DNA of 44,036 nucleotides from an uncultured bacterium (lineage in GTDB: Bacteria; Planctomycetota; Phycisphaerae; Phycisphaerales; SM1A02), in NCBI GenBank assembly GCA_903911205.1, contig CAIWCL010000327.1:1-44036 (forward strand), written 5' to 3'. The notes beneath the pieces were generated by a model. That model did no database searches, was not told the origin of the DNA, and saw nothing but the letters and a program-made list of their open reading frames with translations. The translations under genes and the position numbers were made by a program. Positions 26,940-32,005 of the stretch are shown piece after piece (within the stretch, counting starts at the first letter, position 1; every line of letters starts with the position of its first letter).

Positions 26940-27176
26940 AACGCGAAGATAACGACGAACGGCAAAACCCGCGTACCAACGCGCACGAGTCGCTACCCTT
27001 TCAGGCCGAAGATTGACAACGGCTCGCCGATACGTGACTCTTCCACACGAGGCGATCACGCCAATCCTGGAGGAACTCCGGGACGCAAGGTCACCCTTCG
27101 TGAAAACGCGCATCAGAAATTCGACCATCTCGTGACCGACGACACATCCAACAACAACCGAGAAGCGCCCGTCCGG

Positions 27177-28469
27177 ATGTCCGGCGAGGACGCTGCCTCG
27201 TCGTCGGCACCCTCGCCCGCGAGCACGCAATCGAGCGATGGATCACGCGCGGGCTCCAACTTCGACACCATGCTCGGTCGGGTCGTGGTCGAGCGCGGTT
27301 TGATGACGCCCGAGGAGCTCGATCAGTGTTCGAGCGATCAGCGTGCGCGCGGTCGCAGCGTCGCACCGATCACGCTCGCGGAACTCCTCGTCGAGAAGGA
27401 GTTCCTCACCAAGCGTCAAGTGGAACGGCTGCGCGGCGACCTCGAAGCGGTCAAAACGAGCCAACAAATTCCGGGCTACCGCATCATTCGAAAGCTCGGC
27501 GCGGGCGCGATGGCAACGGTCTTTCTCGCCAAGCAACTGTCGCTCGACCGGCTCGTCGCGATCAAAGTACTTCCCAAGAAGTTCTCGCAGAATCAAAACT
27601 TTATTGAGCGCTTCCTACGTGAAGGACGCGCCGCGGCGAAGCTTTCACACAACAACATCGTCGCCGCGTACGAAATCGGCCAAGCGGGCGAGCACCACTT
27701 CTTTGTGATGGAGTATGTCGACGGCGACACGGTCTACGACCGAATCGTCGCCCGAAAGCGGCTTCCTGAACGCGAAGCGCTCGAGATCATTCGGCAAGTC
27801 GGGTCAGCGCTGCAGCACGCGCACGAAATGGGCTTCGTTCACCGCGATATCAAGCCGAAGAACATCATGATGACCACGGGGAACGTCGCGAAACTGGCTG
27901 ATCTCGGCCTTGCTCGCGCGATGAGCGACAAGGAAGCAGCGGAAGCCGAGTCCGGTCGCGCGTACGGAACCCCGTATTACATCTCTCCCGAACAAATCCG
28001 CGGCGCGGTGCACATTGGACCGCCCGCCGACATCTACGGACTCGGCGCGACCTTCTACCACATGGTGACCGGCAAACTTCCATTTGACGGCACAACGCCA
28101 TCTCAGGTGATGCACCGTCACCTGAAGGATGCGCTCGTTCCGCCGGACCATCTCAACCCACAGATTTCAGGCGGAACCGCGCTCATCATTGAAACAATGA
28201 TGAAGAAAGACCCGCGCGAGCGCTATCAGAGCGCGCGAGATCTCGTGCGTGACCTCGAACTCGTTCTCTCGGGTCAAGAGCCCGAGTACGCGAAGCCGGC
28301 AGTGGATATTTCAACGATTTCGTCCGCCGTCTCGGCATCCGCCCAGGATCCGGTCGCGATCGTTCGCAAGGATGACCCCAAGCCGTTCGCAAGCCTGCCC
28401 GCGATCATCCTGATCGGCATCCTCGCCGTCGGGAACATCGTGCTGCTCGCGGTCGCGCTGCTGCGATAG
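27177..28469 (+). CDS. Membrane-anchored Hanks-type Ser/Thr protein kinase
   Basis: 430 aa from the ATG at 27177; an in-frame GTG at 27132 would add 15 residues, and neither has a clear ribosome site. Residues about 30-92 form a small helical module (MLGRVVVERGLMTPEELDQC, LLVEKEFLTKRQVERL) like the N-terminal domains of GspE/PilB-type ATPases. The kinase domain (100-395) has the glycine loop LGAGAMATVF, K130 (VAIKVL), E149, HRDIKPKN (D224), DLG in place of DFG (242-244) and GTPYYISPEQ. DLG is common in active bacterial kinases. The last 24 residues form a transmembrane helix with no extracellular sensor domain. The ligand-free end implies that input comes through the N-terminal module or the membrane. 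Targets are unknown. Confidence 0.93.
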   Translation: MSGEDAASSSAPSPASTQSSDGSRAGSNFDTMLGRVVVERGLMTPEELDQCSSDQRARGRSVAPITLAELLVEKEFLTKRQVERLRGDLEAVKTSQQIPGYRIIRKLGAGAMATVFLAKQLSLDRLVAIKVLPKKFSQNQNFIERFLREGRAAAKLSHNNIVAAYEIGQAGEHHFFVMEYVDGDTVYDRIVARKRLPEREALEIIRQVGSALQHAHEMGFVHRDIKPKNIMMTTGNVAKLADLGLARAMSDKEAAEAESGRAYGTPYYISPEQIRGAVHIGPPADIYGLGATFYHMVTGKLPFDGTTPSQVMHRHLKDALVPPDHLNPQISGGTALIIETMMKKDPRERYQSARDLVRDLELVLSGQEPEYAKPAVDISTISSAVSASAQDPVAIVRKDDPKPFASLPAIILIGILAVGNIVLLAVALLR

Positions 28470-28576: not shown

Positions 28577-28624
28577 GACGTCAAACTGGCGACGTCAACC
28601 CATCACTTCGACCATCACTTCGAC
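28577..28624 (-). repeat. Short duplications on both sides of the RidA stop codon
   Basis: gacgtcaa occurs at 28577-28584 and 28591-28598, a 14-bp period that repeats the stop codon TGA (28597-28595, then 28583-28581). Just inside the gene, catcacttcgac is duplicated exactly (28601-28612, 28613-28624) and encodes the doubled Val-Glu-Val-Met end of RidA. Confidence 0.8.
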
Positions 28625-29062
28625 CTCAACGGTCGCATCAAGCGGCAAGGCGTTGGTTCCGACGGCCGCGCGCGCGTGTCGCCCCGCCTCACCAAAGACC
28701 TCCTGCATGAACTCGCTCGCCCCGTTTGCAACCTTCGGTTGACCATCAAAGCGGTCGTCCGACTGGACAAACACGCCGAGCCTGACCACCCGGCTCACCT
28801 TGGAGAGATCACCGCCGAGTTGGTCGGCGACGACCGCGAGCGCGTTCAGAGCACACTGCTTCGCGGCCTTTTGGGCATCCTCGATCGACACCTTTGAAGG
28901 GACCGGCCCGGTCGCCATGAGCGTGCCATTCGCCAGTGGAAGTTGCCCGGAAACCACAATGAGGTTCCCAGTGCGAACGGCCGGCACGTACGCGGCGACA
29001 GGCTTCGGGGCGGCGGGAAGGGTGATACCAAGGCGCTCAAGCGCGGCGTGTGGATTGGACAT
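28595..29062 (-). CDS. RidA/YjgF-family enamine/imine deaminase
   Basis: Trimeric cytoplasmic enzyme that removes reactive enamine/imine intermediates of PLP enzymes. The family features are [18 protein letters not shown], the central [14 protein letters not shown], and the C-terminal [13 protein letters not shown] with its catalytic-site Glu. The length of 155 aa fits the longer YjgF-like branch whose N-terminus reads [10 protein letters not shown]; this branch lacks the usual late Arg (VAR) motif, so activity may differ from E. coli RidA. The start is the ATG at 29062 with GGAGGT 5 nt upstream. The last residues are part of a 12-bp duplication and the stop is duplicated too. Confidence 0.9.
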
Positions 29063-29243
29063 GGGGGACCTCCGAGGGTGGTTCGTAATCCTACTGCACG
29101 GCTCGGCTCGCCGCGGGAACAGCAACGGCACCAATGCCACTTGAGGCTCTGTCTGTGAGAGGCGGAGCGACACCCCGCCGATCAATCCGCGCCAGTCCAC
29201 CGTTCAAACCTACTTGTCTTCCGAATTCTCTCCTCACCGGAAC

Positions 29244-29271
29244 TTGACAGGCAGGACGCACGTACTACTCT
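29244..29271 (+). promoter_or_regulatory. Sigma-70-like promoter candidate
   Basis: A perfect -35 hexamer TTGACA (29244-29249) is followed after 16 bp by TACTCT (29266-29271), a weak -10 with three of six consensus bases. It lies just before the strongly structured stretch that starts near 29275 and points toward it. Confidence 0.4.
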
Positions 29272-29274
29272 GCA

Positions 29275-29690
29275 CTGGTTACCTGACGGTTGCGGCTATT
29301 TCGAGGTCGAGCCACCTTTTCTTCCGGCTCTTCTTCACACCGTCCTGATTGAGTTTCTTGTCGGCCCCCCGACGCTTCCGCCGCAACCGCCGACAATTTG
29401 AAACCCCGCCTGAGAGCTGCCGCGAACTTTTGCGGCAGAGCGTGAGTGGCGTCGTTCTTTTCCTCCTTCCGCAGGGCTCAAATTCCCTGCAGCACCTGAA
29501 GGGCTGCCCCGACATCTGCCGGGGACTTCCGAAGGAGAGCGCGAAGCGCAGGACGAGAAGGACACCTGTACTTCGCATCAGGTCGAGCCTCGGTTGGTGG
29601 AGCCTCAAAAGTTCACCCGCGCCGAGCCTCTCGTTCTGTTCTCGCTTCTCGGGCCTGCCCGTCGGGCGTTTTGCAGGGGCGTTTTGCAGG
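29275..29690 (+). ncRNA. Candidate structured non-coding RNA or long structured leader
   Basis: No convincing gene covers this part of the 865-bp gap between ridA and the first prepilin gene. Many perfect helices are visible. A 10-bp long-range helix joins 29287-29296 to 29380-29389. There are local hairpins at 29360-29373, 29417-29438 (7 bp) and 29471-29490 (6 bp). A helix of 29463-29469 with 29531-29537 encloses the last of these and another at 29507-29524. A two-part hairpin lies at 29541-29576. The 8-base loop of the 29417-29438 hairpin (GAACTTTT) is exactly complementary to 29607-29614 (AAAAGTTC), a possible pseudoknot. A weak stem followed by GTTTT near 29657-29672 could end the transcript. 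It lacks the signatures I know for RNase P, tmRNA, SRP and 6S RNA. The strand is assumed from the promoter candidate. The rest of the gap (29716-29927) holds a second copy of gtcaggagcgct and the prepilin leader. Confidence 0.4.
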
Positions 29691-29715
29691 GGCGTTTTGT
29701 CAGGTGTTTTGTCAG
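29664..29715. repeat. 12-14-bp tandem repeat x4 upstream of the prepilin genes
   Basis: gggcgttttgcag occurs at 29664 and 29677, then related copies at 29690 (14 bp) and 29704 (12 bp). Each carries a TTTT run, so on the plus strand it resembles a series of T-tracts after GC-rich bases. A further gtcaggagcgct motif recurs at 29711 and 29771. Confidence 0.8.
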
Positions 29716-29927
29716 GAGCGCTTTTTGCTTGCACACCGAACGCGCCGCCATCGTGCGACGTACACCGTGTGTCAGGAGCGCTCCGCGCAGAATGATCTGA
29801 CGAGCCGCTCAGGACCCGTTCCCTAGCCAATTGCCGTTATCGGCGTGTTTCTTTCCACGCCGCCTTCATTCCCCCCGAGTGGGCCGACAACTGCCGTTTG
29901 CCCACGAACATCTTTCAGGAGTCACAC

Positions 29928-30890
29928 ATGCGAACTGACACGAACCGCAAGAAGAGCGGCCTCGCACGCGGGTTTACCCTCGTCGAACTGCTCGTCGTCG
30001 TGGCGATCATCGCCCTCCTCATCGGCCTGCTTCTGCCGGCCCTGAGCAAGGCGCAGCGCTCGGCGAAGACCCTTCAGGACTCGGCCAACATCAGCCAGAT
30101 CCACAAGGGCTTCCTCACCTACGCCAACCAGGACGACAAGGGCCGCCTCCCGATCCCCGGCCTCATCCGCCGTCAGGCTGTCGGTGGTGTCTTCTACCCG
30201 GGCCAGGGTGAAGAGAACCCGACCCAGAACCGCACCGAAGGTCTCTACAGCTCGATGATCGCAAAGGGCTTCATCACCCCAGAGATCTGCGTCTCGCCGG
30301 TTGAGACCAATCCGGTCGTCAAGACCAAGTCGGACTACAACTACAACTCGTACAACCCAGGTGCCGCTGGCGACGCGTCGGGCCCCTTCCACTGGGATGC
30401 CTCGTTCAAGGCCAACATCCACACCAATCCGGACGGCGGCACCACCCTCGTTTCGCACACTTCTTACGCCCACCTCGCCCTCATCGGCGACCGTAAGAAG
30501 TACCACTGGTCGAACAAGGCTGACGGCACCCGACCGATGATCGGAAACCGCGGCACGTTCAAGGGCAAGGTTCAGGGTGACAACTACTCGAAGAGCTACA
30601 CCCTCTCGTTCCACGCTCCGGACGACACCTGGGAAGGCAACATCTGCTACGGCGACAACCACGTCAGCCTCGAGAAGAGCTTGATCCCCGACACCGTGCA
30701 GTATGAATGCGGCAGCTCGAACCTCGCGAAGGACAACCTCTTCACCGTCGACACCTACTTCCAGTCGACCCAGTGCGGTGGCCCAGTCCTCGGCGGCGAC
30801 ACTTGGCTCTGCATGCACCACGCTGCGACCGCCACGCTGATCACCGAGTCGAAGGAACTCCTCACGAACGGCGCGACGCCGGTTCCGTGA
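29928..30890 (+). CDS. Prepilin-like protein with N-terminal methylation motif, H-X9-DG-like (copy 1)
   Basis: 320 aa. The type IV prepilin/pseudopilin leader is complete: a short basic start, then RGFTLVELLVVVAIIALLIG with cleavage between G15 and F16 and E20 at the +5 position. The hydrophobic helix (16-36) is followed by a globular domain with SQIHKGFLTYANQDDKG. Near the C-terminus, FHAPDDTWEGNICYGDNHVSLE corresponds to the H-X9-DG block of planctomycete DUF1559-type proteins, with DN instead of DG. The product is likely processed by prepilin peptidase and placed in the envelope as a pseudopilin or surface protein. The start at 29928 has CAGGAG 6 nt upstream. The paralogue follows 153 bp later. 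Codon use looks more strongly biased to C-ending codons than in neighbours, a sign of high expression. Confidence 0.9.
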   Translation: MRTDTNRKKSGLARGFTLVELLVVVAIIALLIGLLLPALSKAQRSAKTLQDSANISQIHKGFLTYANQDDKGRLPIPGLIRRQAVGGVFYPGQGEENPTQNRTEGLYSSMIAKGFITPEICVSPVETNPVVKTKSDYNYNSYNPGAAGDASGPFHWDASFKANIHTNPDGGTTLVSHTSYAHLALIGDRKKYHWSNKADGTRPMIGNRGTFKGKVQGDNYSKSYTLSFHAPDDTWEGNICYGDNHVSLEKSLIPDTVQYECGSSNLAKDNLFTVDTYFQSTQCGGPVLGGDTWLCMHHAATATLITESKELLTNGATPVP

Positions 30891-31043: not shown

Positions 31044-31898
31044 ATGCAAAAGAACAACAGCCATCGCAGCAGCCGCGGCTTCACGCTCATCGAGTTGCTC
31101 GTCGTCATGGGCATCATCGCCCTCCTCCTCGCGATTCTCCTCCCAGCGCTCGGCAAGGCTCGCGCCACCACCAAGCGCGTGAAGGATTCCACGCAGCTCC
31201 AGCAGATTCACAAGGGCTTCATCACCCTGTCGCTGGACTACAACGGCAACTATCCAACCCCGGGCCTCATCAACCGCATCGGCACCACGCCGGGCGTTGG
31301 CGCGGAAGATCTTGCCAAGAACACCCACGCCAACATGTACTCGGCGTGCATCATGAACAACGCGTTCGACGCGCAGTCGCTGGTTTCGCCGGCCGAAGTC
31401 AGCACGAACGTCCTTGCGTTCTCGAACTACAACTTCGATGCATACAACGTGACCTCGGCGTTCGACAGCTACTGGGATCCGAACATGAAGTCGGACCTCA
31501 CCACGCTTTCGAACACGAGCTACGGAACCCTCCACCTCGCCGGCTCGCGCAAGGCGAAGGAGTGGAAGGACACCAAGAACTCGAAGTTTGCGGTCCTCTC
31601 GAATCGTGGCGTGAAGAACGGCAGCCTTGCCCCGGCTGACTACAACGCCTCGAAGACGCTCCAGATCCACGGCGCAGCAAAGCAGTGGGAAGGCAACGTC
31701 GCGTTTAACGACAACCACGTCATCTTCGACAACAAGTTCTCACCAGACGGCATCGGCACCTTCTCGGCTGCCGGCTCGACCGTTCCGGTTCCGGACAACA
31801 TCTTCGCCGACGACACCGCGGCGAACGGCGCGGACTCTTGGCTCACCGTCATCTCGACGATGAGCGCGCAGGGCGCACCGACCATCACGTGGGACTAA
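31044..31898 (+). CDS. Prepilin-like protein with N-terminal methylation motif, H-X9-DG-like (copy 2)
   Basis: 284 aa. The leader SSRGFTLIELLVVMGIIALLL is cleaved between G12 and F13, with E17 at +5. Shared features with the upstream gene are QQIHKGFITLSLDYNGNYPTPGL, FDAYNVTSAFDSYWDP and the late IHGAAKQWEGNVAFNDNHVIF (H-X9-DG block with DN). The two are therefore tandem paralogues that have diverged. The start at 31044 is preceded by CGGAG. The stop codon TAA is inside a 14-bp array that runs on for six copies, and a strong terminator follows, so this is the end of the prepilin transcript. Which secretion or pilus machine uses these subunits is not visible in the window. Confidence 0.9.
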   Translation: MQKNNSHRSSRGFTLIELLVVMGIIALLLAILLPALGKARATTKRVKDSTQLQQIHKGFITLSLDYNGNYPTPGLINRIGTTPGVGAEDLAKNTHANMYSACIMNNAFDAQSLVSPAEVSTNVLAFSNYNFDAYNVTSAFDSYWDPNMKSDLTTLSNTSYGTLHLAGSRKAKEWKDTKNSKFAVLSNRGVKNGSLAPADYNASKTLQIHGAAKQWEGNVAFNDNHVIFDNKFSPDGIGTFSAAGSTVPVPDNIFADDTAANGADSWLTVISTMSAQGAPTITWD

Positions 31899-31974
31899 TC
31901 GAAAGGGACTAATCGAAAGGGACTAATCGAAAGGGACTAATCGAAAGGGACTAATCGAAAGGGACTGATCCGAA
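31891..31974 (+). repeat. 14-bp tandem repeat x6 containing the second prepilin stop codon
   Basis: Five identical copies of gggactaatcgaaa (from 31891, 31905, 31919, 31933, 31947) are followed by a sixth altered copy (gggactgatccgaa, 31961). The first copy contains the last Asp codon and the TAA stop. The following copies place TAA at 31910, 31924, 31938 and 31952 and TGA at 31966, covering every frame. Confidence 0.97.
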
Positions 31975-32005
31975 GGGATCCCACGCAGATTGGTTCAACC
32001 ATCTT

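Follow-up and report, generated by a model that had tools for sequence, protein, structure and literature searches.

Evidence for a conserved structured RNA and its promoter upstream of prepilin genes in Planctomycetota

We analysed a 44,036-nt stretch of DNA from an uncultured planctomycete (the window, here meaning the whole stretch) and found, upstream of a prepilin gene, what is almost certainly a conserved structured RNA with a promoter of its own. The RNA is about 120 bases long and probably forms a regulatory region with which the prepilin message begins. Its carriers are many related, mostly uncultured Planctomycetota, which keep the fold with changed letters. By Rfam it is a well-supported, uncatalogued family, the Rhodopirellula-1 motif being compared by its table entry only. 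A sequence-only reading of the window had proposed a novel structured RNA upstream of the prepilin genes, driven by its own TTGACA promoter; this proposal is strongly supported by the homologues, by covariation and by the lack of any match in Rfam.

Architecture of the RNA

The features of the locus, in order of position, are the following.

28595–29062, minus strand: divergent RidA-family gene, upstream (Pfam YjgF_endoribonc and Ribonuc_L-PSP)
29244–29249, plus strand: –35 element TTGACA, pattern conserved ahead of RNA copies
29266–29271, plus strand: –10 element TACTCT, 16-bp spacer from the –35 element
29278–29401, plus strand: conserved structured RNA, about 120 nt (model R1 match 29274–29401; models R1–R3; covariation)
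29287–29296, plus strand: P1 5′ strand CGGUUGCGGC, pairs with 29380–29389
29303–29336, plus strand: hairpin P2 (29303–29306/29333–29336 and 29309–29313/29326–29330)
29339–29346, plus strand: conserved single-stranded junction ACCGUCCU (from alignments)
29360–29373, plus strand: hairpin P3 (GUCGG 29360–29364 with CCGAC 29369–29373)
29380–29389, plus strand: P1 3′ strand GCCGCAACCG, pairs with 29287–29296
29389–29401, plus strand: conserved 3′ tail GCCGACAAUUUGA, consensus GCCGACAuCCUGA, GCCGACA (from alignments)
29416–29823, plus strand: non-conserved spacer, containing the partners of an earlier proposed pseudoknot and a tandem repeat
29824–29927, plus strand: second conserved island directly 5′ of the prepilin start (5′ UTR, identity 0.70–0.88)
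29928–30890, plus strand: prepilin gene, the constant downstream partner (Pfam N_methyl PF07963 above cut-off; IV_pilin_GFxxxE domain)

The RNA has a three-way arrangement in which the closing helix P1 surrounds hairpins P2 and P3. P1 is the perfect 10-bp helix at 29287–29296/29380–29389 that had already been picked out from the letters; taken alone it is weak, since 8% of simple letter-shuffled versions of the region contain one or more comparable pairs of arms. Several other genera have a P2 that is shortened or absent, and the sequence of P3 changes freely among homologues. The junction ACCGUCCU and the GCCGACA tail are weakly conserved, still recognisable where the helices vary. An alternative in which the 5′ strand of P3 pairs with the 3′ tail was considered and rejected: the tail is constant while P3 switches to other pairs. 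In one species (G015, locus L044, 517–702) a 59-nt insertion separates the junction strand from hairpin P3. The folding energy of the plus strand is modestly low (z = –1.68; 2 of 100 shuffles as good); on the minus strand z is –0.91 and 17 of 100 shuffles are as good.

Compensatory changes maintain the fold

The P1/P2/P3 arrangement is maintained by compensatory change. Covariation in an alignment of homologues, a check named in the sequence-only reading, is strong across the family: among 31 family-wide sequences, in an alignment fitted to the model and hence biased toward structure, 18 of the 24 pairs change on both sides, with 65 both-sides cells versus 14.7 after shuffling and at most 12 after sliding the partner by 1–3 columns. 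In this fitted alignment both-sides change is seen in 7 of the 9 pairs of P2 and in 4 of the 5 pairs of P3. Because the alignment leans to the model, 27 diverse sequences were realigned with MAFFT alone and P1 only was counted. In the unfitted alignment 9 of the 10 P1 pairs change on both sides (47 cells versus 14.1 shuffled; at most 14 when slid). Within the genus alone (12 sequences) there is little covariation, in 3 of 24 pairs and 4 cells, and the structure is unproven there because the letters vary too little.

One could expect a modest single-sequence folding z-score such as that reported above if the structure were due to chance, or if it were a DNA-level element such as an operator or a set of inverted repeats. 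However, this explanation is contradicted by compensatory change in helices whose arms lie up to 83 nt apart, and the helices occupy one fixed strand relative to the promoter and the prepilin gene. We regard its probability as practically negligible.

Extent of the conserved unit

The interval first reported for the RNA, 29244–29690 (447 nt), stands in part: positions from about 29236 to 29415 are conserved, whereas the remaining 275 nt are unconserved even among the closest relatives. Conservation stops at about 29415, and the view of the whole interval as one structured RNA is not borne out. In the three closest species, identity per 40-nt block is 0.70–0.95 in a first island (29224–29423) and 0.12–0.35 at 29424–29823, and conservation resumes in a second island (29824–29960) that includes the prepilin start. 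Two islands with an unconserved spacer between them are found both in these three species (the g1 trio) and in g17. The first island opens with GGAACTTGACA, followed by the 16-bp spacer and TACTCT, and closes after GCCGACAAUUUGA; the conserved unit starts with the promoter and ends near 29401–29415. Within the second island, aligning 13 members of the genus predicts a hairpin at about 29838–29859 (about CGGCGUG...CACGCCG); 3′ of it, ahead of the prepilin start, lies an AGGAG ribosome-binding site. The second island differs in other genera.

The region was said to hold no convincing gene, and we agree: a 183-aa minus-strand ORF (29279–29830) is without a Pfam match, and homologues of the region carry indels that are not multiples of three. 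A tandem repeat of GGGCGTTTTGCAG-like units occupies 29664–29725, inside the unconserved spacer. The loop at 29424–29431 is, as had been noticed, exactly complementary to 29607–29614, 176 nt apart, but the functional pseudoknot that this might have formed was rejected: both partners lie in unconserved sequence and the loop differs in two relatives (G002 and G011). The sole perfect long-range match, of 29358–29367 with 29881–29890, is lost in G011 and was also rejected.

Distribution of the RNA

We searched with model R1, built from 12 genus members, and with models R2 and R3, built from earlier matches (E-values are from a short calibration). R1 matched 39 of the 181 family genomes and R2 matched 69 of the 181, spread over 19 of 45 genera. 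R2 and R3 combined place the RNA in 89 of the 181 family genomes, with 92 of the 181 lacking a match. In a sample of the order, R3 matched 87 of 400 genomes (85 from the family, G364 from a second family, and G568, judged false). In the class, R2 matched 17 of 397 genomes (16 from the family, plus G364). At the level of the phylum, R3 matched 3 of 294 genomes (the window's own genome, G004, and G906, judged false), and no further true copy outside the genus was found among these 294. The matches in G568 and G906 were dropped before counting; they were judged false because they have no prepilin gene downstream and look like coding sequence.

Within the genus, 15 of 16 genomes carry the RNA. The exception, G014, has a contig break at this place: its contig begins about 200 nt 5′ of the prepilin gene. 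With filters off, two of the 92 unmatched family genomes give matches upstream of their prepilin gene (24.1 bits in G017 and 27.0 bits in G020), which were left out of the counts; nothing convincing was found in G034 and G014 (filters off) or in G021, G037 and G046. A strict pattern scan of named genomes returned seven records, all of them MAG or uncultured assemblies and most titled Planctomycetota, Planctomycetaceae or Planctomycetia. The same strict pattern had no match in viral contigs.

A promoter at a fixed distance from the RNA

The perfect TTGACA noted earlier is present at 29244–29249, and the distance to the –10 element predicts a transcript start near 29277–29280. We scanned the RNA copies with the pattern TTGACN-N15..18-TANNNT, using letter shuffles that preserve letter content only, here and for terminators below. 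The pattern lies 5′ of 54 of 71 copies (0.42 expected), of 12 of 20 further copies and of one additional copy (G018 C143), for a total of 67 of 92 copies; the spacer equals 16 every time though 15–18 was permitted. In contrast, the spacers between RNA and prepilin gene contain it in 1 of 68 cases (0.84 expected). A strict-rule promoter scan of the window found none, because TACTCT has 3 of the 6 consensus letters and the –10 rule was strict.

Linkage to the prepilin gene

A prepilin gene lies downstream on the same strand of 88 of the 92 copies, at 88–761 nt, and 3 of the other 4 copies are at contig ends. In the first set of 71 copies, 68 have a same-strand prepilin gene; the rest are two contig ends (G009, G122) and one copy in G018 (C291). 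The 20 copies found by R3 only served as an out-of-sample test: 19 have a prepilin gene and one reaches the contig end after 127 nt. The second copy in G018 (C143) also has a prepilin gene downstream on the same strand. The C291 copy (L136, 3022–3122) has no prepilin gene within 2.2 kb and no promoter match; candidate readings are that it has moved or decayed, or that it stems from contamination of the bin.

In G364, which belongs to another family, the RNA is flanked by a divergent RidA-like ORF on one side and a prepilin gene on the other, as in the window, and the motifs and position of this ORF equal those of the window's RidA gene. In G006 (C270, 8869–13019) two copies of the RNA each lie 5′ of their own prepilin paralogue, followed by a third prepilin gene, which suggests that RNA and gene were duplicated together.

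The prepilin itself has an N-terminal methylation motif and few other named features. The window's own genome contains 17 prepilin matches, and the question raised is one of RNA-level control of one prepilin among many in the genome. As to the surroundings, a Ser/Thr protein kinase is encoded two genes upstream of the prepilin (27168–28466), and its N-terminal part weakly resembles an MshE-related c-di-GMP-binding domain, with a score below the cut-off. Just 3′ of the second prepilin gene lie 6.3 copies of a 14-bp unit (31891–31978).

A leader of the prepilin message or a separate RNA

Whether the RNA is independent or a long leader had been left open by the sequence-only reading. With no second promoter of the same kind, no clear excess of terminators and a constant prepilin neighbour, we infer that the balance leans to a leader; between a 5′ leader acting in cis on the prepilin mRNA and an independent small RNA, we slightly prefer the former. 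RNA and prepilin gene are tentatively read as one transcription unit because, in the 68 spacers between them, the promoter pattern occurs once and sites resembling intrinsic terminators occur in six. The latter is twice the shuffled number (6 versus 3.0 expected), from few cases.

The distance from RNA to start codon is 90–761 nt (median 293.5; 68 copies) and the spacer is unconserved within the genus. A long unconserved spacer with islands at both ends also fits two separate units, which is the main counterpoint to the leader. The RNA would then be an independent trans-acting small RNA gene adjoining the prepilin gene, and the second conserved island would hold the prepilin promoter. The two islands with unconserved sequence between them (g1 trio and g17), the RNA's own promoter at a fixed distance ahead of it, the copy without a prepilin gene (G018 C291) and the terminator-like sites in six spacers are all consistent with such a gene. 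However, the same type of promoter is absent from 67 of the 68 spacers, terminators show no clear excess there, and the G006 copies appear to have duplicated along with prepilin paralogues. Moreover, a trans-acting RNA would not usually stay linked to one gene almost perfectly across 25 or more genera. A separate small RNA gene seems to us possible but doubtful.

For the leader, we suggest that transcription would start a few bases 5′ of P1 and run on into the prepilin gene, so that the prepilin mRNA would begin with the RNA. Less certainly, the RNA may act in cis as a sensor, the junction strand and the 3′ tail being where a small molecule or a protein would bind, and the state of the sensor might set the amount of prepilin mRNA that is completed, kept or translated. 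We looked for an expression platform in the window, the spacers and the relatives and found no conserved terminator and no conserved pairing with the ribosome-binding site. A Rho site in the spacer was considered and rejected, as there is no excess of C over G (means 0.291 and 0.284; C > G in 32 of 50 loci).

A folded structure where the message of a surface-protein gene is predicted to begin would also be expected of a passive stabiliser, which would shield a plentiful pilin mRNA from degradation and sense nothing. Such a role leaves the conserved unpaired letters of the junction and tail unexplained, however, and we consider it quite improbable. The cis-acting leader could, on the other hand, belong to a new riboswitch class confined to a group of Planctomycetota, in which an aptamer built as a three-way junction at the head of the prepilin mRNA would sense a small molecule; we put this forward as a speculative and rather unlikely proposal. 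If it were true, the ligand might be a second messenger with a link to life on surfaces, and the pilin would be controlled from up to 700 nt away.

Comparison with known RNA families

The sequence-only reading had named an Rfam search as a check, and the region is without a match at E ≤ 10 in Rfam 15 (4227 families). There was none at the gathering threshold, and ten homologous loci and the whole window gave none at E ≤ 1. Rfam might have missed a known RNA in divergent form (6S, SRP, RNase P, tmRNA or c-di-GMP riboswitch), and it speaks for this that 6S RNA is weakly detected in the genus and that RF00013 has no match in the window's own genome. Against it stand the empty searches on region, ten loci and window. 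In addition, the own genome encodes its SRP RNA and its RNase P RNA on two other contigs (C308 and C132, respectively), and sub-threshold 6S-like matches in G001, G012, G013 and G016 are on other contigs than the RNA copies of these genomes. We hold a divergent known RNA to be very improbable. Our literature search found no description of this RNA and no work on such RNAs in Planctomycetota; the family described here is tied to one surface-protein gene in that phylum. Both alignment and covariance model could now be submitted to an RNA family library.

Like 6S RNA (RF00013), the RNA is small and has a closing helix and its own promoter. Unlike 6S RNA, which in Rfam is a rod of 187 positions, it is a three-way arrangement of about 120 nt. 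GEMM-I and GEMM-II c-di-GMP riboswitches occur upstream of pilin genes and are covered by Rfam. They share with our RNA the position of a structured leader before a pilin-type gene, but the fold is different and the region has no Rfam match even at the permissive threshold given above.

Comparative genomics has also yielded a set of 104 motifs that includes orphan riboswitch candidates and structured 5′ leaders (PMC2864571). Among them, the Rhodopirellula-1 motif is listed as a candidate for Proteobacteria and Planctomycetes, with no Rfam number beside its entry in that table passage (PMC2864571); both it and the RNA described here are candidate structured RNAs that include planctomycetes, a likeness drawn from the table entry only. 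Our RNA differs from the orphan riboswitch candidates in having no Rfam family match, a long and variable distance to the gene and no recognised expression platform, and resembles them in its compact covarying fold, conserved unpaired letters, fixed promoter and single kind of downstream gene.
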